From assembly GCA_020850535.1 (NCBI GenBank), contig JADZEM010000086.1, positions 1 to 60,669 of the forward strand: a DNA stretch of 60,669 nucleotides. Direction: 5' to 3'. This document shows, in pieces, positions 4,441 to 60,669 of the stretch (position 1 is the first letter of the stretch; each line of letters begins with the position of its first letter). The stretch is from Chloroflexota bacterium. GTDB taxonomy: Bacteria > Chloroflexota > UBA6077 > JACCZL01. The translations under genes were made by a program, and so were the position numbers. The notes below the pieces were generated by a model. That model worked only from the letters and a program-made list of their open reading frames with translations, did no database searches and was not told where the DNA came from.

Positions 4441-6978
4441 TCAGCGGCGACGTGGCGTCGGGGTGGCCTGCGGCTTGGGGGCCGGGGTCGGCTGCGGACG
4501 CGTGTTCGGCTGCTGCGGCTTCGAGGCGGCCGTCGGCTGCGCTGGCGCCGCGGTCGGTTGGAACCGGTTGGCCGGCGCGGTGTCGGCCGGGCGTGGCGTC
4601 GCCTGGGGCGGCGGCCCGGGCGTGCGCCGCGGCTGGAGGATCGGCAGCCCGGGGATCAGGCCCGGCGCTGTGGGTGTGGGCTGGGCGCCCTCGCCCGGCT
4701 CGCCCTCGGCGGCCTCAGCGGCCTCTGGAGTCGTCGTCGTGGATGGCGCCACCGTGACCGTCACCGCTGGAGCGGGCGCGGCCGGTGCGGGCGCCGGCGC
4801 GGCGGTCGAGGATGGCGTTGCGCCCGGCTGCACGACCCGGCCGCCGCGCGGCACCGACTCGGCGGGGTAGAGGTCGGTCACGCAGGCCGTGTTGTTGGTG
4901 CAGATCTGGACGTCGACCAGCCCCGGCGGGCGGGTGAACTCGTCCGGTGGTAGCTGCAAGTAGTCCAGCGACGTATCCATCGCCTCGCGCCAGATCTTGC
5001 CCGCGCTCATCGAGCTGAGGACTTCCTTCATCGGGCGGTTGTCGGTGTTGCCGACCCACACGCCCACCGTCAGATTCGGGGTATAGCCCATCGTCCAGGT
5101 GTCGCGGTAGCTGTCGGTGGTGCCCGTCTTGGCCGCGCCCGGACGGGTCAGCTTCAGCATGCTGTTCGGGCCGTAGGTGATGAGGCGGGCGTTGTTGTCC
5201 GAGAGAATGCTGGTGACCATGTAGGCGTAACGCGGATCGACGATCTGCTCGCCCTGGGGCACCTTGTACTCTTCGAGCGTGTTCCCCTCCGCGTCCACGA
5301 TCTTGGTGATCGAGACCTGGGGAATCCGCAGCCCGTTGTTGGCGAGGACGGTGTACGCCGCCGTCATGTCGAGCGGCCGGACCTCCGCGCCGCCCAGCGA
5401 CATCGCCAGCCCGAGGCGGCGATTGTCCGTCCAGGTCGTGATGCCCATGCGCCGCGCCAGCTCGGCCACGCTCTCGACGCCCGCGAACTGGATCGTCTTG
5501 ACGGCCGGGATGTTCAGCGAGTTGCCCAGGGCGATGCGGGCCGTCACGTTGCCGTGGAACCGCTTGTCGTAATTCTCAGGCTCCCAGGTCCGGCCCAGCT
5601 CGTCCTTGATGGACAGCTTCTCGTCCACGATCATCTGGCCTGGCGTCCAGCCCTTGGTGAACGCCGAGAGGTAGACCAGCGGCTTGATGGTGGACCCCGG
5701 CTGCCGCTCGGAGACGGCGACGTTCACCTGCCCCTCGATGTCGGTGTTCCAGTAGTCCATGCTGCCGACCATCGCCAGGACTTCGCCGGTCTTCGGGTTC
5801 ATCACCACGATGGACGTGTTCTCGGCGTCACGCTGGTCGAGGTTCGGCTTGTTCGCCAGGGCGACCTCTTCCATCCTGGTCTGCAGGTCGAAGTCGAGCG
5901 ATGTGTAGATCTTCAAGCCGCCCTGGTAGAGCATCCGCGTGCCGTACTTCTCCTCGATCTGGCTTCGGATGTAGACGGCCCAATGGGGGGCCAGGAACGG
6001 CTGCTTCTGCGGCTGGTACCGCAGCTCGGCCTGGCTGGCGGCGTTCGCCTCGGCCTCGGTGATGAAGCCGTGGCGGACCATCTGTTCCAGCACGTAGGCC
6101 TGCCGGGCCTTGGCCGCCACCGCGTTCCGAAGCGGGTTGTAGACGGCAGGCGACTGCGGCAGGCCCGCCAGCATCGACGCCTCGGCCAGCGTCAGGTCGC
6201 GAGCGTGCTTCCCGAAATACCCCTGGCTGGCGGCCTCGATGCCGTAGGTCTGGTTTCCGTAGAAGATCTCGTTCAGGTAGAGCGTCAGGATCTGGGACTT
6301 CGAGACCTTCTGGGTGAGCTGATACGCCAACAGCGCCTCGCGGATCTTCCGCATCGGCGTCTGCTGGTAGCGCTCGTCCTCGGGGATCAGCACGTTCTTG
6401 ACCAGCTGCTGGGTGATCGTGCTGGCCCCTGAGACGATGTCCTGCTCGGCCAGGTTCTGGTAGAAGGCGCGCGCGATGCCCTTCGGCTCGATGCCCGGGT
6501 TCGAGTAGAAGTTGGCGTCCTCGGCGGCGAGCGTCGCGTCGATCAGGTACTGCGAGATCTCGCTGATCGGGACCACGGTCCGGCGGCCGGCGTCAGGGTC
6601 GAAGAACTCCCACAGCAGCCGGCCCTTGCGATCGTACAACTGGGCCGTCTTGAAGGTCTCGCGGCCGGCGATCTGGTTCAGCGACGGCAGATCGCGGTTG
6701 ATGCTGGCGTAGGCCGACGACGCCATGTGCATGCCGCCGAGGATCGCCATGACGCCCAGGCCTGCGAACCCCAAGCCGATGACGATCATCGTCAGGAAAG
6801 CGGCGCGGAGTGCGCTGCGCGGCTTCTGGCGCTGGCGGCGGCTGCGCGAACGAGCGCGCTGCTGAAGGGCCTTCAACTCCTCGCGCCAGGAGTCGGAGCC
6901 GTTGACCGGCTGCGTGAAACGCTGAGCCGCCCGTGAGGAGCGCCCATTCCGACCGTTGCCGCCAGATCCGTAGGCCAT
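4441..6978 (-). CDS. class A penicillin-binding protein (bifunctional transglycosylase/transpeptidase)
   Basis: Polymerises and cross-links peptidoglycan outside the membrane. The 845 residues read in order: Arg-rich cytoplasmic tail, one membrane anchor (about 57-85), a GT51 transglycosylase domain with the catalytic-Glu region [15 protein letters not shown] and [13 protein letters not shown], then a transpeptidase domain with QPGSTIKP (Ser-X-X-Lys) and AKTGTTD. The C-terminal 130 or so residues are Pro/Ala/Thr-rich with repeated TP motifs, a disordered tail common in Chloroflexota envelope proteins. At the 3' end the DNA around 4442-4484 is nearly repeated at 4385-4427 just past the stop, suggesting that the tail was shortened or extended by duplication. 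Confidence 0.93.
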
Positions 6979-7052
6979 GCCGAAGGCATTGTGCCAGACC
7001 GGGCAGGCGGGCGGGCATTACGTCACCGTCGCAGTCCGTGGAGGCGTGCGCC

Positions 7053-8825
7053 TCACCCGGGTCCGCGCGGGGGCACGTCCACCGTCTGCTCGTTGATGTA
7101 CGAGACCAGCCCGGGCGGGCCGCCCCTGATCCGCCGCACGAACTTGCGAGGCGTCCAGTCCACCGCGACCCGGCTGTCCGTCCGACCCTGGCTGTAGAAC
7201 GCTGCCAGCTCGGCAGCGCGCTGGAGGACCCGCTCGGGCACCTTCTGCCCGGAGGTCCGCACGATCACGTGCGAGCCGGGGCGCTGCCGGGCGTGCAGCC
7301 AGAGATCGTCCTGGCCGGCCACGTCAAAGGTGATGTGCTCGTTGGCCTTCGCGCTGGTGCCGACGTACGCCAGGAAACCGTCTGGCAGCGGCACGGTGAT
7401 CGGGCGGGGGCCGTCATCGGCCGGCTTCGGCGCGAACTTCCCGCGCTTGCGGGCGGCCTGCGGCTCGCGGTCGCGCAGGATACCGGCCACCCGCAGCTCT
7501 TCGCGCAGCGCGCGGATGCGGCTCGGATCGTCCGCGATCCGTACCAGGGTGTCCATCTCGGCGAGGTGGCTCAGCTCGCGGTCGGCCTGGGCCACCAGCA
7601 GCGGCACGCGGCGGCTGGCGTCACGCGCCCGCTTGTAGTCGCGGAAGTAGCGCTGGGCGTTCTCGCTGGCCGACTCGCGCGGCTCGAGCTTGATCTCCAG
7701 CCCGTCGACGGCCAGAAGCTCCTGGCCCGGCCGGATCGCGTGGGCGTAGGCGAGAATGGTCTGCCCGATCTGGCGCAGGGCGTCAGGGTCGCCGGCCGCC
7801 TCCTGCGAGCGTGCCAGGGCGTTCCGCCGCCGCAGCACCACCTTCTCGCGGGCCGCGATGGCATCCAGGAGCGGGCGCGACATCTGGTTTGCCGTCTCGG
7901 GCTTGCTGCCGTTGGCCTCTGCCGCCTCGCGCCCAGCGTACGCCTCCTCGACCGCCTCGCCGATCGAGTCCACGCTGACGATCTCGCACTGATCCGCAAG
8001 GTGCGTCAGGTGGTACGGCGCGAACGCGACGATGTGGCCCTCGAAGCGGGCCACGCAGGGCGACCATCCGCCCTCGCCCCGGATTGGCCCGAGTAGCTCG
8101 ACAACCGCATCATGCACCCGATCCAGGTCGGCGTCGCCGGCCGGACTGGCGATGCTGCCCGTCGCCCGGTAGGCGGCCTCGCGGGCAACCAGCCGCGAGA
8201 ACCCGGCCAGCTCGCTCCCGAGCAGCTCCGCAACGTGACCCTGCGGATGCTGGCGGGCCAGCGTCCGCAGGTGATCCCAGGTGTCCAGTGCGAACGGCGA
8301 CCGCCGATCCTGGGCCGGCGGCGCGTCGTAGCGGCGACGCGGGAGGATCGGCCGGATCGGGTTCTTCTCGGCCGATGCGCGTCGCAGCGCGTCCATGATC
8401 GTGCCGTCCGGACTGACCAGCACCGCGTTGCTCCGCCGACCCATCACTTCTATAATCAGCCCAACTTCGCCGCGGCTCCCTTCGTCGTCTCGCTTGGAGA
8501 TCTGAAGCTCGAGCACGCGCTCCAGGGTGGGCTGGCTCAGGGTGTCGAGTCGGCCATCCCGGACGTACTTCCGAAGCAGGAGCAAGAACGGTGTTACCAA
8601 CTCGGCCGCCCGGTCATGTCGGCGTCGCGTCACCACAACGCGGGCGGCATGAGGGTCGGCCGAGATGAGCAGCGTGGCCCGCTCGCCGTTGCCGTACAGC
8701 TCCAGCGCCAACGTCCACTCGTCCAGCAGCCCGACCTTCTGGATGCGCGCACCCGCGAAGCCGGCGCGCAGCTCGTCCACCACGGCATGCAGGGTCAGGG
8801 CGTCGAAGCTCAGCGACGGTTTCAT
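7053..8825 (-). CDS. rqcH: RqcH / NFACT-family ribosome quality control protein
   Basis: Homologue of eukaryotic Rqc2/NEMF and Bacillus RqcH, which binds obstructed 50S subunits and adds C-terminal alanine tails to stalled peptides. The 590 residues start with the NFACT-N domain (SFDALTLHAVVDELR and ARIQKVGLLDEWTLAL), continue through a long helical coiled-coil middle (about 300-440), and end with the NFACT-R (DUF814) domain, seen in DDLWLHARQRPGSHVIV and SRVAVDWTPRKFVRRI. Length and order match the family. It is divergent from gmk with a short shared control region. Confidence 0.92.
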   Translation of the reverse strand: MKPSLSFDALTLHAVVDELRAGFAGARIQKVGLLDEWTLALELYGNGERATLLISADPHAARVVVTRRRHDRAAELVTPFLLLLRKYVRDGRLDTLSQPTLERVLELQISKRDDEGSRGEVGLIIEVMGRRSNAVLVSPDGTIMDALRRASAEKNPIRPILPRRRYDAPPAQDRRSPFALDTWDHLRTLARQHPQGHVAELLGSELAGFSRLVAREAAYRATGSIASPAGDADLDRVHDAVVELLGPIRGEGGWSPCVARFEGHIVAFAPYHLTHLADQCEIVSVDSIGEAVEEAYAGREAAEANGSKPETANQMSRPLLDAIAAREKVVLRRRNALARSQEAAGDPDALRQIGQTILAYAHAIRPGQELLAVDGLEIKLEPRESASENAQRYFRDYKRARDASRRVPLLVAQADRELSHLAEMDTLVRIADDPSRIRALREELRVAGILRDREPQAARKRGKFAPKPADDGPRPITVPLPDGFLAYVGTSAKANEHITFDVAGQDDLWLHARQRPGSHVIVRTSGQKVPERVLQRAAELAAFYSQGRTDSRVAVDWTPRKFVRRIRGGPPGLVSYINEQTVDVPPRGPG

Positions 8826-30825: not shown

Positions 30826-31457
30826 GGTGCTCTGGCTCCTGTTCGAGGACAGGCAGCGGCTACCGTGGTGGGTCGGCTGCGGCGTTGAGGCGACCACGTC
30901 GGTAGCCCGGCTGTCGTGCCCTTGCGGGGGTAGACCCGTGGCTTTGCGTCCCAGTCTTTCGGCTGGTTTGCCCTTGTCGGATGGCGTACGGGTGTGCGAT
31001 GCCTGGCGAGCGGTGGAGCGTGCGTATGCTGAATAGTCGACTGGCGTGCGCCCGCACGGACAGCGATCGGCGCGCCACGAGCGGGGTCGTCGGGCCGTCG
31101 ATGGAAGCGCCCGACACTAGCAACAACGCCAGGTGTGGGGTGAGAGTGACGCGCATTCTTCGAACATCAGCGCGTATGTCTGCCGAGGGCGCTTCCAAGC
31201 GTACCGTCAAACCGATCTGACGACGCTCATCGTATATCTGTACTCATCGATATGGTGATACGAGTTTATTCGGGCTACTATATATTGAGTAGTGTTCTAA
31301 CTATGCCCGAGAGCAGCTCGACCCTTCGACCGACTGCCCACGCTGTGAGCCGTGCCCCGCCCGTGCCGCCCGAGGACATGGAACAGTCCCACCGAAGCGC
31401 GGTCGTGGGCAGCGCGACAGGGAGCCATCGTCGGCCATCGTCGGCGAGGGCGGCGCC
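30826..31457. other. long leader and intergenic region
   Basis: It holds the riboswitch at 30890-30985 and the promoter region of the secreted-protein gene to its right. An unusually AT-rich island lies at about 31220-31310. No other gene was recognised. Confidence 0.6.
30890..30985 (-). ncRNA. c-di-GMP-I (GEMM) riboswitch
   Basis: Read on the minus strand the RNA contains GGGCAAACC, then a stem capped by GCCGAAAG (a GNRA tetraloop), then GGGACGCAAAGCC, a second hairpin GGGUCUACC...GGCACGAC, and the closing GGGCUACCGACG. The GACGCAAAGCC core with the GNRA-capped P1b stem and tetraloop receptor side is diagnostic of the GEMM-I class. It lies 65-160 nt upstream of the ATG of the secreted glycosidase-like gene. 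Whether it acts as an on or off switch cannot be told from sequence. Confidence 0.88.
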
Positions 31458-54961: not shown

Positions 54962-55340
54962 GCGCGCACGGCGCACCAGTCTGAGGCCCGAAAGCAGGTG
55001 TCCCGCTACGCGCCGCTCTGGACGTGAGCCGAGATCGAAAGAAGAACTCCTGACCAGGGGCTTTCAGCCCTGACCGGGAGTGACGGTGGCGAGGGGGAGA
55101 TTCGAACTCCCGACCAAGGGCTTATGAGTCCCGGTCCGAACCTCCGGCCCCTTGCGATTGCCGGTGGTCTCCTCTGGTAGCGTGTGGTCCGATTGCGGTC
55201 GTGGGTGGTCCCTTCTGGCCAATATCGGATGCCGTTCCCCCACTGGTTCCCCCACCTCTACCAGGAGTAAGTGGCGTCCAATTCCCCATCGAGACTGAAT
55301 TGCTCAGCGTCTTCTGGACGGCGGCGTGATGGTGATCCAG
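54962..55340. other. boundary region with att site and integrase-type short repeats
   Basis: It holds the 44-bp tRNA-Met-derived repeat at 55085-55128. A degenerate version (ACTCCTGACCAGGGGCTTTC) lies at about 55048. To the right are short GGTCTCC/GGTCCC and TTCCCCCAC repeats at 55170-55260. No gene was recognised. Confidence 0.5.
55085..55128 (-). repeat. att site: 3' half of tRNA-Met (copy 1)
   Basis: Exact 44-bp match to 59447-59490. On the minus strand it reads CTCATAA (CAU anticodon loop), the 3' anticodon stem, the variable loop, a T-arm around GTTCGAATC, and the acceptor strand CCTCGCC with ACC. The sequence further 5' does not pair as a tRNA, so this is a half-gene left by integration, not a working tRNA. 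Confidence 0.85.
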
Positions 55341-55898
55341 TCACTGGCTAGAGCCACTCGCAGCCTTGATGCGCGCGTTGATGAACGGGGAGAAGTGGCC
55401 CTGGTACCGCGCCTGCAGCTCCGGGAGTCGCCAATCTCGGCCAGTGTGCGTCCGCCGGCACAGTGGGGAGCCGCAGTTGCATTCCCACGGCCTCACATAG
55501 GCCTCGTCGGCCTCCCACATGACGTAGTCGCCGGTCAGCTCCTCTCCTGGCCGGATGTCGCGCCGGGCGACCAGGGTCACCTCGTCCTGCATCCAGCAGT
55601 TCGGGTCGCACGAATGGTTCATGAAATCCCCGAGATCGTCCCGCTCGCGATCGTACTGGCCCACCGGGCTCCCCAGATAGCGCCCCTCGCCGATCGCGAC
55701 CGTACTGCGCTCAGCGGCATTTCCAGCATCCACCTCGGCCTGAGTAAAGACCACCCCACCCCAGATCACGACGATCTCGCCCGCCCGGATAAATGAGCAG
55801 GAAAACATGCCTCGCCCGCCGATCGGGGAAGCGCGGATCTCGATGCGCGGATCGATCCATTCGTGCGAGCGGTATGCCGTTCGTACTTGATCAGCCAT
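55341..55898 (-). CDS. SET-domain protein methyltransferase
   Basis: 185 residues from ATG 55898. SET proteins transfer a methyl group from S-adenosylmethionine to lysine side chains. The core is complete: EIRASPIGGRGMFSCSFIRA, the pseudoknot motif DFMNHSCDPNCWMQDE and GEELTGDYVMWEA, followed by a post-SET zinc-like segment CNCGSPLCRRTHTG. The bacterial target is unknown. Its start overlaps the end of the upstream gene by 8 bp. Both are cargo of the tRNA-bounded islet. Confidence 0.9.
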   Translation of the reverse strand: MADQVRTAYRSHEWIDPRIEIRASPIGGRGMFSCSFIRAGEIVVIWGGVVFTQAEVDAGNAAERSTVAIGEGRYLGSPVGQYDRERDDLGDFMNHSCDPNCWMQDEVTLVARRDIRPGEELTGDYVMWEADEAYVRPWECNCGSPLCRRTHTGRDWRLPELQARYQGHFSPFINARIKAASGSSQ

Positions 55899-56556
55899 CG
55901 GCAAACGACTCCCGCATCCGCATGTCGAACAGGTTTGGCGTGTATTGCCCAGACTGGCGCGACCGGTGGGTCACTTGGCATGAACGAAGCCATTGGTCGA
56001 GCGCAGTAGGTGGGCGGCGGACCAAACGACGAGTGCAGGCACCGGCTTGTTTGGCGGCGCGGACTGCCCTCTCGCCTCGCGCCATGTTCACAGACACGAT
56101 GGGCGCCCCGCGTCGTGCCACCGGCCGGTTCAAGAACGACCACGCTCGATCGAATGCCTCGGCGCTGGAGGCGCGTGACGCGGCATGCGCAGTTGACGGC
56201 GGCGTGGTTTCCTCCGGCCAGACGCCGACAAGCTCCGCGTCCCCAAGCGCGTCCTCCAGAAGCCGTCGCTGTGCCCAGGTGAGGGCGCCGCGAATCGTGC
56301 GTTCTCCGCCCGGCCGCCACTCCTGTCCCAACAATGCGAGCGCCTGCGGTAACGGTAGGTGACCCCACTTGCGCGCCAGCCGATCGGACTCGCGCTCTTC
56401 GGATGGGCGTAGCACCGCGATGGGCTCGGCCCGCCACGTGGCGAGCCATTCTCCGAGCGTCGCTCCGGAAGCGTCGGACGGTAGCGCCTGGAGGGACGGC
56501 GCAGGGAGCGCACTACGCCGAACTCGGGGTGGCCGTGATGGGGGTATGCCGTCCAT
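55891..56556 (-). CDS. unknown protein, partner of the SET methyltransferase
   Basis: 221 residues, no family recognised. Features: a Pro/Arg-rich start, LGEWLATWRAEPIAVLRPSE, a basic/helical middle with LTWAQRRLLEDALGDAELVG, VSVNMARGERAVRAAKQAGA and a conserved-looking end QYTPNLFDMRMRESFADG. No signal peptide or membrane helix. The overlap with the SET gene indicates co-expression, so it could be the methylation substrate or a subunit. Confidence 0.6.
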   Translation of the reverse strand: MDGIPPSRPPRVRRSALPAPSLQALPSDASGATLGEWLATWRAEPIAVLRPSEERESDRLARKWGHLPLPQALALLGQEWRPGGERTIRGALTWAQRRLLEDALGDAELVGVWPEETTPPSTAHAASRASSAEAFDRAWSFLNRPVARRGAPIVSVNMARGERAVRAAKQAGACTRRLVRRPPTALDQWLRSCQVTHRSRQSGQYTPNLFDMRMRESFADG

Positions 56557-56775
56557 GTGGGTCGGCTCTCCTAACCGTGGGCGAATCTTGCCGATGGGCT
56601 AGCGCAACCCGCCACGTCCGGGGCAACATTGCTTTTCGGGGACCAGCCATCTCTTGTGGGATCCGCTCTCAGCGGGCATCCTGATTCGGCGAACCTGGAA
56701 TAGACAAGCATTCCCATCGCCTCATCGGGAGTCGGGGGAGGGATGCCGCCAGAATTCAGGGGCTCTCCAGCATGC

Positions 56776-57027
56776 TTAAAGCCAGAGCAACTCGGCATCA
56801 TCCAGGATCAATTCGGTCTGCCTACCGTCGATGACCTCCACAGGCTCCCAGTCGTTGTCTCCGTGGTACAACGTCGCGGCAGCGTCGCCGCGGTCGTAGA
56901 CGAACACAAGTTGTTCGCCATGACGATTCTCGAAGTAGCCTACATAGCGACCAGAACGGGTCTCCACCTCTGGTCCGCATTGTTTGTGGTGGTTCGGCAC
57001 GCGGAGCAGTTCGTCAGCGCCTGCCAT
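56776..57027 (-). CDS. small unknown protein
   Basis: 83 residues from ATG 57027, which has TAGGGGGT upstream. Acidic, with beta-like pattern: SGRYVGYFENRHGEQLVFVY, AATLYHGDNDWEPVEVIDGR and the end ELILDDAELLWL. No family recognised, but composition and ribosome-binding site are those of a real gene. It lies between the unknown/SET pair and the AbiE-type pair. Confidence 0.65.
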   Translation of the reverse strand: MAGADELLRVPNHHKQCGPEVETRSGRYVGYFENRHGEQLVFVYDRGDAAATLYHGDNDWEPVEVIDGRQTELILDDAELLWL

Positions 57028-57153
57028 GTCAGACCCCCTATGGAAAAACTGGCGACATCCGGCTCATGACTATAGCACAATTGTTCTACGGCATGATCCG
57101 AGCACTCGCCGGCCCCATTCGCGCACCAGCCATCCCGCCCATCCGCCTGGCTC

Positions 57154-58078
57154 TTACGATTCGTCCTCTACGGGATGCGCAGATCGCTGTGCGTCGATGG
57201 ATTGCAGAAAGACGTCGATCACCGCTGCGGCGTCCTGCCTGTGGCGTGCATCCATGTCGCGCCGGCCCGGATCGGCCAGGAAGCGGGCGTAGCTGATCGG
57301 CCCGTCCTTGCGTGCGCCGGGCGTGCGCTCGTCGGAGGCGAAGCGGGCACGCAGGATCTCCAAAGCGCGGCTCAAGAGTGGCTCGTCTGACCAACGCGCG
57401 AGACGTTCGGCGAACCGCGCGGCGACGTCCGTGGGGCCGTCATCGTAGTGCATCAGGCAGTAGATGAGATCGTAGGCGTCCTTCTCCTCGAACCGATCCT
57501 CGTAGGCCAGTGCCTTGAGGACCACGAACGGGACCACGTTCGCGACGCGAATGGTCTCAGTCGCGATCCCGCGCTCGTCCAGCAGTGCGACGGTGATGTC
57601 CACTGTGACATGATCTCTCGCCACAAGGTGGGCCCGGGATCTTGACCGCCGACAATCGTCGCTCACCGGGTAGTGGAGCCACGCGTCCGCCTTCGGACGG
57701 ATCGGCGTCACAGAGAAGATCGACTACCACCGTGACGCCTCCGCCCACCGGCTTCCGCCACGAGAAGTGCTGGGTCTGTCCCTCGTCGTTGCTGCCCCGA
57801 ACGAAGCCGAGCGACCTCAGGTTCTGCTCGAGGCGTCGGTAGGCCTCGACAGTGACGAGCACGTCGAGATCCAGGATCAAGTCGACGTCGGTCGTGCCGG
57901 CGTGCGGGGGAGGCGCCTGGTCGTCACCCGACCGTTGGATCAGGTAGCGAGGTACGAGACCGCCGGTCAGGTAGATCCCAGCTTTCCACGGTCCAAGTCC
58001 GCGCAAGAGGGTGACGAGCGTCCGCTCGCACAGCTCGGCGTGCAGCGCCGTGTATCCGCCTTGATGCTTCGGTTTCAT
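57154..58078 (-). pseudogene. AbiEii-type nucleotidyltransferase toxin, frameshifted
   Basis: Start ATG 58078. The first frame gives YLTGGLVPRYLIQRSGDD, GTTDVDLILDLDVLVTVEAY and TVVVDLLCDADPSEGG, the nucleotidyltransferase core with its Asp pair. Near 57630, at a GGGCCC-containing run, a one-base shift is needed to reach the frame with AHLVARDHVTVDITVALLDE, PFVVLKALAYEDRFEEKDAYDLIY and the C-terminal helices, ending at 57154. Both parts fit one DUF1814-like protein. It is either inactivated, a sequencing error, or shifted on the ribosome. The start is 16 bp from the AbiEi stop. Confidence 0.8.
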
Positions 58079-58094
58079 CGTCGATTCCGCACAC

Positions 58095-59189
58095 TCAGAA
58101 TCCTAGCCGCTCGGCACGCAGGTGACGCGCTTGCTCCTTGCCGCGCTGAGGCCAGGCGTAGAGGTCTAAGTAGAGCTGGATGTCGCTCGCGACCCAGGTG
58201 TCGTCGATGCGGCGGCGGAAGAGAAGCGGTGTGCGCTCGCGGGTGACGAGGAACGTGACGGTCTCACCCTCGTCGACGGGGCTGAGACCGGCCTGCCGTG
58301 TCACTGTGTCCAAGATCGTCAGAGGCGGCACGAGGAGCGTGAGCCGGCCGCTATCCGTCGCGAACGGTGCCACAAAGCTCGCTCCGGCTGCGAGCGTCAG
58401 AGCGTACTCGACGCCGTGCGTCTCAAGGACGAACGTGACTATTCGCCGGACTTCTGACGGATCACGTGCCCACCGGTGGAAGCGATGCGCGCTGTATGCC
58501 GCAAGTGTGTGATGCTCCGACCAGGCATCGAGCAGCGCGCCGGGTTCGTGCAGGATGCGCACCACTTGCGGGCCGGCGCCACGCTTTTCGACCCAGAGGT
58601 GCTCTTCGAGGAAGGTGAAGACCTGATGTACCGTTGAGGGGGCGACCTCAGCTCGCTCCGCGAGTTCATGGACATGCCAGGCCCGCTCAGGTGCTGTGAG
58701 GAGTGCGTGGAGAACCTGGGCGGCACGGCCCCGAAAGACGTTACGAGCTCGGCGCACGCTGCGCTCGGGGACGGGCCGATCGATCCAATAGAGTGCATGG
58801 GGAAGATCCAGGTACAGACTGCCACCGGAATCCCAGTAGCCGACGCCGCGTTCTCTGAGCAGTTCACGACTGGTCGGGGGAATTGCCGGCGCGACGAGCA
58901 TGAGGCTGAGTGGCCGCATCCCGTCCTGTTGCCTGTTGCGGTCTCGCAAGGCAAGGAGTTGATCGGCGGCAGCGCGGACATCACGCGGGTAGGCGTTCGC
59001 CTTCACGTCGATGAGGATGTCAGCCGGTTGCCCTTTAATATCTGCCGTGATAACTAGATCAACTCGCCGGTCGAGTAGACATCGATGGCGGCGTTCAGTG
59101 TGCAGCCTGATGCCAGGAAGCGCGGCGAGAGCCTCTCTGACCTCGCCCAATAGCTCGACGGCTTCAAGGTTCTTCGATGATTGTGGCAT
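58095..59189 (-). CDS. AbiEi-type antitoxin / transcriptional regulator
   Basis: 364 residues from ATG 59189 (a TTG at 59216 is less likely). N-terminal restriction-endonuclease-like part (LVITADIKGQPADILIDVKA, NAYPRDVRAAADQLLALRDR), a winged helix in the middle (AWHVHELAERAEVAPSTVHQ, VFTFLEEHLWVEKRGAGPQV), and the C-terminal AbiEi hallmark DIQLYLDLYAWPQRGKEQAR. In type IV systems AbiEi represses its own operon by binding inverted repeats; a perfect 24-bp inverted repeat covers this start codon. No ribosome-binding site is evident. Confidence 0.85.
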   Translation of the reverse strand: MPQSSKNLEAVELLGEVREALAALPGIRLHTERRHRCLLDRRVDLVITADIKGQPADILIDVKANAYPRDVRAAADQLLALRDRNRQQDGMRPLSLMLVAPAIPPTSRELLRERGVGYWDSGGSLYLDLPHALYWIDRPVPERSVRRARNVFRGRAAQVLHALLTAPERAWHVHELAERAEVAPSTVHQVFTFLEEHLWVEKRGAGPQVVRILHEPGALLDAWSEHHTLAAYSAHRFHRWARDPSEVRRIVTFVLETHGVEYALTLAAGASFVAPFATDSGRLTLLVPPLTILDTVTRQAGLSPVDEGETVTFLVTRERTPLLFRRRIDDTWVASDIQLYLDLYAWPQRGKEQARHLRAERLGF

Positions 59190-59227
59190 ATTCGCTGCAC
59201 AGAGAATATGCCACAATCATCGAAGAA
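59170..59227. repeat. perfect 24-bp inverted repeat over the AbiEi start
   Basis: The left arm 59170-59193 and right arm 59204-59227 are exact inverses with a 10-nt spacer. The left arm encodes the first AbiEi codons (MPQSSKN) on the minus strand; the right arm would encode the same start on the plus strand (MPQSSKK, stopping after 17 codons). It can act as operator, as mRNA hairpin blocking the start, or both. Confidence 0.9.
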
Positions 59228-59604
59228 GCCGCAAGAGGGCACGCAACGGCGGTCAACGTGATTCGAGCATCAGCCGGAATCGTGCCGCTCGACCATACAC
59301 ACCGGCAGTCCCCTGGTCGGCATCCGAGTCCCTTGGCTTCTGCTGCCACGAACCCTTGGTCGCGGCCACAAGGGACTCGAAAACAAACACCGTCCCCTGC
59401 TCATGCCATCGGCGTGACCAGGGGACTGACAGGCTGACCAGATAGAGGTGGCGAGGGGGAGATTCGAACTCCCGACCAAGGGCTTATGAGGCTTTTGGTC
59501 ACGCGACCAAGGGAATCACCATGTATCCGCCAATCTCCTGGTCAGAACCGCCCGGTTTCACTGACCACTCCCCTGGTCACCGTCCCTTGGTCAAAGTCCC
59601 CTGG
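59190..59604. other. element junction region
   Basis: It contains half of the 24-bp inverted repeat, the second att copy and the array of TCCCYTGGTC motifs. No coding gene was recognised. Confidence 0.6.
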
Positions 59605-59606
59605 TC
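59309..59606. repeat. array of short att-core-like repeats
   Basis: About eleven copies of TCCCYTGGTC or its inverse lie in 300 bp: near 59309, 59329, 59352, 59369, 59393, 59416, 59474 (in the att copy), 59505, 59534, 59569, 59583 and 59597. TTGGTCACGCGACCAA (59495-59510) is a dyad of the motif. The motif equals the anticodon-stem/variable-loop part of the tRNA-Met att core, so these may be integrase binding sites. Confidence 0.7.
59447..59490 (-). repeat. att site: 3' half of tRNA-Met (copy 2)
   Basis: Identical to 55085-55128 over 44 bp, with different flanks on both sides. It marks the right border of the 4.36-kb islet and the left border of the element that continues to the right. Confidence 0.85.
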
Positions 59607-60660
59607 ACCTCGGGATCGGGCGGCCTGACTCGACTTGCCCTGTGACACCAATGGAGTTGACCCCGCCCGACGGCCAGGGGCATCGATCGCTGAGGCACTC
59701 GAACGGCGTGCGCCATATCGGCCCCAGTAACCCGAGCTGATTCGCCGGGTCATGTGTGATCCGCCACTCGCTCGTCAGTAGGATCGGCAGTGTGGGCGAG
59801 CGGCCGACCGAGACAGCGCGTACAGTCCGAGCGATACGCTCCTCCACCGCGTTGCTGGTTGTGACGACCAGGATCGTGGGGAAGCCATCGTAGTCATGTT
59901 CGAAGGCGCGACTGTCGCGATAGTCGTAGTAGGCACCCCACTTCTCGCCGTAGTCGCGGGCGCTCATTGTCCCGCGGTCGTATTCCAGAAAGAAGCCGTG
60001 TGGTTGCCCATGGAGGCGAACCATGCCGTAGCCGTCCGGCTTCACTCGTCCACGGATGCAGGCCGCGGCGTTCCGCCACTCCAGAACCCCGTCGTCGTCG
60101 GCCGACGTACCTATCGTGCGGACGATCCGATGGAGCCCGACAAAGATCCCGTCAGCGCCAACTGTGTGATTCAGGTTTCTTGTGAGCAGTTCGCGGGTAC
60201 CAAATGGGCGTGCGGAACTGCCACCAGCAAGACCGTTGAATCGGATGGCGCCCGTCAGACTGAGACCATGCTGAGCAGCGACCAACCTGAGGCCGGCTTC
60301 AGTGAGCTCAGTCAGGTCGTCGGCCGGAATGCTCTTGATCTCTTCGGCACCAAGAAGTCTGACGAGGCCGAACTGGATGAGGTGTTGCCGACGCTGTCGG
60401 ACCCGTCGCACCTCCCAGCCGAGGACGGTCGCCAGACTCTCGGCTGGCAAGAACGGGTGTCGCCCGACAAGGTCAAGGAGCGTCCGTTCCTGAGGCGTCA
60501 CTTCGAGCGCGACCGCCCATATCCCTTCCGCCGACTCCCCACGCCGAAGTGCAAGGCCAACTGGTTGCGGGATCCGGCCGCTAGGACGTTTCGCCAGACC
60601 AGCCCGGAGCCCCAGGTATCGGACGCAAAAGGATGGTGACGATCTCGGGGCGAAAGCCAC
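59605..60660 (-). CDS. replication-relaxation family protein, probably cut by the window edge
   Basis: At least 351 residues; the frame has no stop between GTG 60660 and the window end. Winged helix (ERTLLDLVGRHPFLPAESLA, VRRVRQRRQHLIQFGLVRLL), then the conserved core KPDGYGMVRLHGQPHGFFLE, YDRGTMSARDYGEKWGAYYD and FPTILVVTTSNAVEERIART of the Replic_Relax family, found on integrative and conjugative elements and plasmids near replication and transfer genes. The stop falls in the att-repeat array, so the gene is the terminal gene of the right-hand element. Confidence 0.8.
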   Translation of the reverse strand: MAFAPRSSPSFCVRYLGLRAGLAKRPSGRIPQPVGLALRRGESAEGIWAVALEVTPQERTLLDLVGRHPFLPAESLATVLGWEVRRVRQRRQHLIQFGLVRLLGAEEIKSIPADDLTELTEAGLRLVAAQHGLSLTGAIRFNGLAGGSSARPFGTRELLTRNLNHTVGADGIFVGLHRIVRTIGTSADDDGVLEWRNAAACIRGRVKPDGYGMVRLHGQPHGFFLEYDRGTMSARDYGEKWGAYYDYRDSRAFEHDYDGFPTILVVTTSNAVEERIARTVRAVSVGRSPTLPILLTSEWRITHDPANQLGLLGPIWRTPFECLSDRCPWPSGGVNSIGVTGQVESGRPIPR

Positions 60661-60669
60661 GTTCCTGAG

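Follow-up and report, generated by a model that had tools for sequence, protein, structure and literature searches.

A cargo islet between half tRNA-Met copies in a Chloroflexota genome, probably a cis-mobilizable-type element in an accretion array

How does a block of DNA without an integrase come to lie between two identical copies of half a tRNA gene, and can it still move? We address this question for a contig of a Chloroflexota bacterium (GenBank JADZEM010000086.1, assembly GCA_020850535.1; here C86), which at 60,669 bp makes up the entire stretch that was analyzed (the window) and belongs to a genome (G000) of 7.65 Mb in 227 contigs. Close to its right end, an islet with a body of 4,318 bp (55129-59446) is enclosed by two 44-bp sequences, the cores, that match the 3' half of a tRNA-Met gene. 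We find that an origin of this islet by site-specific integration is very likely, and that the islet as a whole is probably an element of the cis-mobilizable (CIME) type in an accretion array at the 3' half of tRNA-Met. The ability to excise today is a separate matter, for which we would give somewhat less than an even chance.

A preliminary description of this locus, made from the DNA alone, had noticed a pair of identical half tRNA-Met repeats, and we locate both on the minus strand, at 55085-55128 (left core) and 59447-59490 (right core), identical to each other and 4,362 bp apart from start to start. Each spans the anticodon loop through to the 3' end of tRNA-Met; the match of the left core to the tRNA extends over 48 bp (tRNA positions 27-74, up to 55132) and that of the right core over 44 bp (positions 31-74). 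An exact 44-bp repeat within 60 kb is no chance event. Since ARAGORN detects no tRNA gene in the window, neither core has a 5' half, just as had been claimed, and an RNA element search gives no Rfam match at the cores. In a genome-wide search allowing up to three mismatches, the core is not scattered but occurs in a single extra copy, which is the 3' half of an intact tRNA-Met gene on another contig (C3:54596-54669). From the missing 5' halves and the presence of the sole other copy in an intact tRNA-Met, it follows that both window copies are members of a tandem array on the 3' side of this tRNA gene, and the expectation that the intact gene would be found further away is borne out.

The position of this tRNA gene within its contig is informative in itself. 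Contig C3 (54,669 bp) terminates on the last base common to tRNA-Met and the cores, and the base after the core end differs between the left and right window copies, so the assembler probably faced more than one continuation at this point. The break could stem from collapse of the repeat or from mixed integration states, between which the C3 end does not discriminate. The order downstream of the tRNA would then be intact tRNA-Met (end of C3), a gap, a neighboring element that we call element A, the right core, the islet, the left core and the chromosome, with C86 presumably following C3. An assembly graph that is ambiguous exactly at the repeat also raises the question of whether wrong partners were joined there and the arrangement is an artefact. 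We consider this very unlikely: partner swaps among the three cores alter the order or form circles, but two half-copies with different flanks, together with the arm-like motifs described below, remain in any case, and a related genome (G007, contig C12) has the same type of array, unbroken.

If a site-specific recombinase made these insertions, we might expect binding sites next to the cores. In the window there are 11 occurrences of the motif CCCYTGGTC, versus 1.1 in shuffled sequence; 2 of the 11 lie within the cores, and 7 fall in a stretch of 300 bp around the right core, on both sides of it. At the right end of the islet (59306-59428) it is found at 59310, 59353 and 59416, and at the start of element A (59505-59608) at 59505, 59570, 59584 and 59598. 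An extended 13-mer, TGACCARGGGACT, has exactly two occurrences in the 7.65-Mb genome, at 59415 and 59595, and these flank the right core (TGACCAGGGGACT at 59415-59427 and, on the minus strand, at 59595-59607). Among 29 genomes of the class we count 13 exact matches to TGACCARGGGACT. Eight of these stand beside tRNA-Met-derived cores, some of them decayed (two in G000, four on contig C75 of G028 and two on contig C497 of G020), while the other five are isolated and probably lie within genes. The motif is in this way found beside such cores in two further families of the same order, once next to a split tyrosine recombinase. Judging from position and repetition, we propose that TGACCARGGGACT marks putative arms to which a recombinase would bind. 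The motif is also similar to the tRNA-Met gene's own CCCTTGGTC. The islet's left end has a pair of imperfect direct repeats of 26 nt (55152-55177 and 55193-55218, together 55152-55218), which are possible arm sites of another type. As a side observation, decayed tRNA-Met-like cores stand beside TGACCAAGGGACT motifs at G028:C75:214142 (L155) and G020:C497:19460 (L147), and the first of these adjoins a second, different integrase.

The tRNA-Met site is occupied elsewhere in the class as well. G028 carries half tRNA-Met copies on two contigs; on one of them, C75, five arm-like motifs about 22 bp apart precede the half-copy, and about 140 bp after it comes the gene of a tyrosine recombinase (PF00589), broken into two frames, whose product shares 51-53% identity with the intact 405-amino-acid (aa) integrase encoded on contig C125 of G000. 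A related C-terminal integrase piece directly follows tRNA-Met in G005, and G001 has one half-copy. On G007 contig C12, the intact tRNA-Met is followed on the same contig by half-copies about 6.9, 11 and 19 kb on, the last of them decayed; a Pfam scan of the first two inter-core segments finds no tyrosine integrase in them, and transposases and cargo are present. The half-copies in three other class genomes always match their own host's tRNA-Met best (42-44 of 44 positions), so that recombination with the resident tRNA either created these halves or maintains them. Contig ends lie within 300 bp on the 3' side of tRNA-Met in 6 of 19 genomes versus 0.33 expected (5' side: one), a comparison whose P value is rough as contig numbers were rounded in the source. 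Finally, 13 of 15 core matches on viral contigs likewise consist of a half that starts at the anticodon loop, making the tRNA-Met site a common target.

This recurrence bears on whether an integrase is needed at all. The mere existence of a repeat would also fit a tRNA fragment duplicated by homologous or replication-slippage events, but the halves start at the anticodon loop and come with arm-like motifs, like integrase attachment sites, and the same boundary returns in relatives and on the viral contigs. We give such a duplication next to no credence, and the attachment-site character that had been proposed for the half-copies is supported.

Some of the occupants of these sites are of interest in their own right. 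The cargo beside half tRNA-Met copies in G028 looks defence-like (C70 6917-12360, L074; C75 7508-12646, L075), with an AbiJ N-terminal domain, DUF2321 and a 1,385-aa protein with an AAA/NACHT-like ATPase domain. IMG/VR contig 3300043445_000139 (39 kb; L126, L131) has an intact tRNA-Met and a half-copy with an identical 3' half, an arrangement as would be expected of an integrated element with both attachment sites. On another viral contig (L128, 41% G+C), half-copies at 2461 and 9538, 7 kb apart, flank a viral-looking segment with an intein-bearing ThyX gene, and an integrase lies just outside.

Where, then, is the integrase that served this array? There is no tyrosine integrase on C86, in line with the integrase-free islet of the preliminary description: all 11 PF00589 matches of the genome are on other contigs. 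Element A, which meets the islet at the right core, starts at 59491 and runs off the end of C86 at 60669. It encodes the C-terminal half of a Replic_Relax protein (59605-60669, minus strand; PF13814, E=9e-21), cut by the contig end; in a homologue of 659 aa on C125, which is 48% identical, the corresponding part is residues 332-641. A stretch of 115 bp, with no integrase in it, separates the end of this gene from the core's 5' side. C125 itself holds a second element of the same genome, in which a tRNA-Lys, the intact 405-aa integrase and the 659-aa Replic_Relax follow in a row (5069-8725, L023). We consider the C125 integrase unlikely as a direct helper because the tRNA-Lys that it adjoins has a different anticodon-loop sequence. 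Integrases at contig edges (C198, C152, C12, C4) were also weighed as candidates for the lost part of element A; neither an arm motif nor a core occurs in the stretches examined there.

In the mechanism that we favor, a tyrosine recombinase would have made the insertions by recombining the core in the tRNA-Met anticodon loop while bound to TGACCARGGGACT arms. Every new element would restore the 3' half of the tRNA and push older copies outward, and the islet would be one such unit whose own recombinase was lost or never present. If it is still mobile, it would move with the neighboring element or via an integrase acting in trans, and recombination between its two cores could release it, either by itself or jointly with element A.

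The content of the islet sets it apart from its surroundings: its G+C is 63.9% versus 69.3% in the flank, below all 254 flank windows of equal size (the lowest has 66.1%). All of its genes are on the minus strand. A SET-domain protein of 187 aa (55341-55904; PF00856, E=2.2e-15) has homologues in 38 of 301 sampled Chloroflexi genomes. The start of its gene overlaps by 14 bp with a 221-aa open reading frame (55891-56556), which, like an 83-aa frame at 56776-57027, belongs to no family in Pfam, NCBIfam or PADLOC. A nucleotidyltransferase-like gene (57154-58078) is distributed over two frames (57557-58078 and 57154-57711) that meet near 57632. In the relative G020 it is one intact 306-aa gene, with the two corresponding halves directly adjoining, so the gene is interrupted here by a frameshift near 57632 or by an error of assembly. 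Next comes a 373-aa protein (58095-59216) with a PD-(D/E)XK-like N-terminal part and an IclR-type helix-turn-helix (HTH; PF09339). When scanned against the genome contigs, its sole match is the G020 neighbor of the nucleotidyltransferase gene, at 57-58% identity, and the gene pairing is thus also found in G020. A structure model (mean pLDDT 43; only the N-terminal part, at about 70, was used for Foldseek) suggests that this part resembles PD-(D/E)XK proteins of the EndoMS/NucS and XisH families (E about 1e-4 to 1e-3). The model of the nucleotidyltransferase homologue (mean pLDDT 39) was unusable, and a PDB sequence search returned no match. A near-perfect inverted repeat of 28 bp (59170-59227) spans the start of the gene for the 373-aa protein and is a possible operator; the start of the G020 homologue seems to have a similar palindromic stretch.

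No integrase, relaxase or phage gene is recognized among the islet proteins by Pfam, NCBIfam or PADLOC, and the earlier view of the islet as carrying cargo only holds. The label of an AbiE-type pair that had been given to two of its genes is weak. The AbiEii match of the nucleotidyltransferase is weak (PADLOC, E=2e-4 across 43 residues) and is not obtained with the intact homologue; no AbiEi antitoxin family is matched, the 373-aa protein giving only the HTH and the PD-(D/E)XK-like part; and where AbiE, a type IV toxin-antitoxin system, consists of two intact genes, the nucleotidyltransferase gene is here split between frames. We therefore do not use this label. To the left of the left core the genes look ordinary (for example a Crp-type regulator), and elsewhere in the window there is a c-di-GMP-I-GGC riboswitch aptamer (30897-30981, minus strand, 74.2 bits).

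Several points weigh against the CIME-type reading. The assembly does not join C3 to C86, and their connection is presumed. The left core has no TGACCARGGGACT arms on the islet side. No integrase was found for element A, which is cut by the contig end, and neither its last 200 bp nor the missing N-terminal half of Replic_Relax leads to a continuation in the genome. Pfam, NCBIfam and PADLOC recognize no remnant of an integrative and conjugative element (ICE) or an integrative and mobilizable element (IME) in the islet. The empty site that the preliminary description suggested seeking in related genomes did not turn up: synteny in two other family members gives no common order near tRNA-Met, except for an upstream CitE gene that confirms the locus. 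On the other side, neither of the two findings that the same description had named as refuting its view came up: the core is not scattered at unrelated places, and none of the relatives searched has this gene order between halves as a fixed locus would.

The main rival is that the islet is a fixed remnant, a once-complete element from which the integrase and mobility genes were deleted, so that the cores persist with no movement. Decay is visible in several places. A frameshift interrupts the nucleotidyltransferase gene. A core-like sequence adjoins the left core on its chromosome side (55025-55068, minus strand), and a 20-mer within it (55044-55063) agrees with the core in 18 of 20 positions, a score reached by 0 of 400 random 100-bp stretches; it is possibly a decayed older attachment site. 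The integrases at relatives' tRNA-Met genes are split or cut, and the contig itself has no integrase. Together, the frameshift, the core-like copy and the broken integrases indicate ongoing decay, and we regard a fixed remnant as a serious contender, if less than an even bet. Yet over 44 bp the cores have kept full identity with each other and with the tRNA, and the break of C3 at the last shared base fits several continuations, although neither is proof of activity. The CIME-type reading and a fixed remnant overlap, sharing a common origin and differing in present activity only.

A different possibility is that integrase-free blocks, satellites or cassettes, form a lineage which includes the islet and regularly uses the integrase of other elements at the same site. 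The integrase-free blocks of G007, with other cargo between half tRNA-Met copies, and the arm-like motifs common to G028 and G020 are consistent with such a lineage, but no whole-islet relative was found (the islet genes occur apart elsewhere), and no tRNA-Met-specific integrase was identified in the genome, the nearest being that of C125 beside tRNA-Lys. We judge this explanation unlikely. The tRNA-Met 3' half might likewise be the site of a cassette-like array, in which tyrosine recombinases of one common family, encoded elsewhere, would act in trans to shuffle integrase-free blocks, some defence-like, with core and arm sites, as happens with integron cassettes, an idea that we find similarly doubtful. 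When the locus was called satellite-like at the outset, the cargo-only, integrase-free part of that statement was right; present movement by an integrase encoded elsewhere would be hypothetical, and a CIME, moved in cis with its neighbor or fixed, is a closer category than a phage satellite, no phage-related gene being recognized.

The islet, read as a CIME-type element, is another case of a known kind of integrase-less element and is explained in outline. What was a bare repeat is now tied to a testable integration system, with the tRNA-Met anticodon loop as target, a 13-bp arm-like motif that three families of the same order have, and a candidate family of recombinases. With it, integrase-less tandem accretion in Chloroflexi reaches beyond the ssrA gene of Dehalococcoides to a tRNA target, and accretion at tRNA-Met may explain why assemblies in the class tend to break just 3' of this gene. 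Most worth following are the arm-like motif, which is specific, and the repeated use of the tRNA-Met site across the class.

How does the islet compare with known systems? Phage satellites, such as phage-inducible chromosomal islands (PICI) or P4-like elements, are a poor match, as the islet has no phage-related replication, packaging or capsid-interfering genes (Pfam, NCBIfam, PADLOC). It shares with clusters of attC sites lacking integrases (CALINs), which are integron cassette arrays without an integrase (PMC11389934), an array of recombination sites with cargo reliant on an integrase elsewhere; here, in contrast, the sites are tRNA halves with separate arm-like motifs, the blocks are 4-8 kb long with several genes, and any use in trans is hypothetical. 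Among tRNA-targeting elements with Replic_Relax and a tyrosine integrase, as on C125, element A likewise has the Replic_Relax protein, whereas the integrase, which on C125 separates Replic_Relax from the 3' end of the tRNA, has no counterpart between Replic_Relax and the core.

The ssrA islands of Dehalococcoides, from the same phylum, are arranged in tandem downstream of one RNA gene and bounded by repeats of its 3' end, and 15 of them, which have no integration module, have been put forward as cis-mobilizable (PMC3146451). The islet has the same tandem placement at an RNA gene, the repeats of its 3' end and the lack of an integrase. It differs in its target (tRNA-Met instead of ssrA, the tmRNA gene), in its repeat (44 bp instead of 20 bp) and, we infer, in using a tyrosine recombinase instead of a serine (CcrB-like) one (PMC3146451). 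The CIME concept itself comes from elements related to ICESt1 (defined in PMC5704250). Like a CIME, the islet has attachment sites at both ends, in the form of two identical cores that are the tRNA-Met 3' half, carries no integration or transfer genes, and follows a second element in a tandem arrangement at the 3' end of a tRNA; the integrase of a tandem partner has not been recovered, element A being present with its Replic_Relax gene but cut by the contig end. The islet departs from a CIME in having no recognized ICE or IME remnant, and its host is an environmental Chloroflexi lineage. That the islet is a CIME is not proven; that it works like one is likely.

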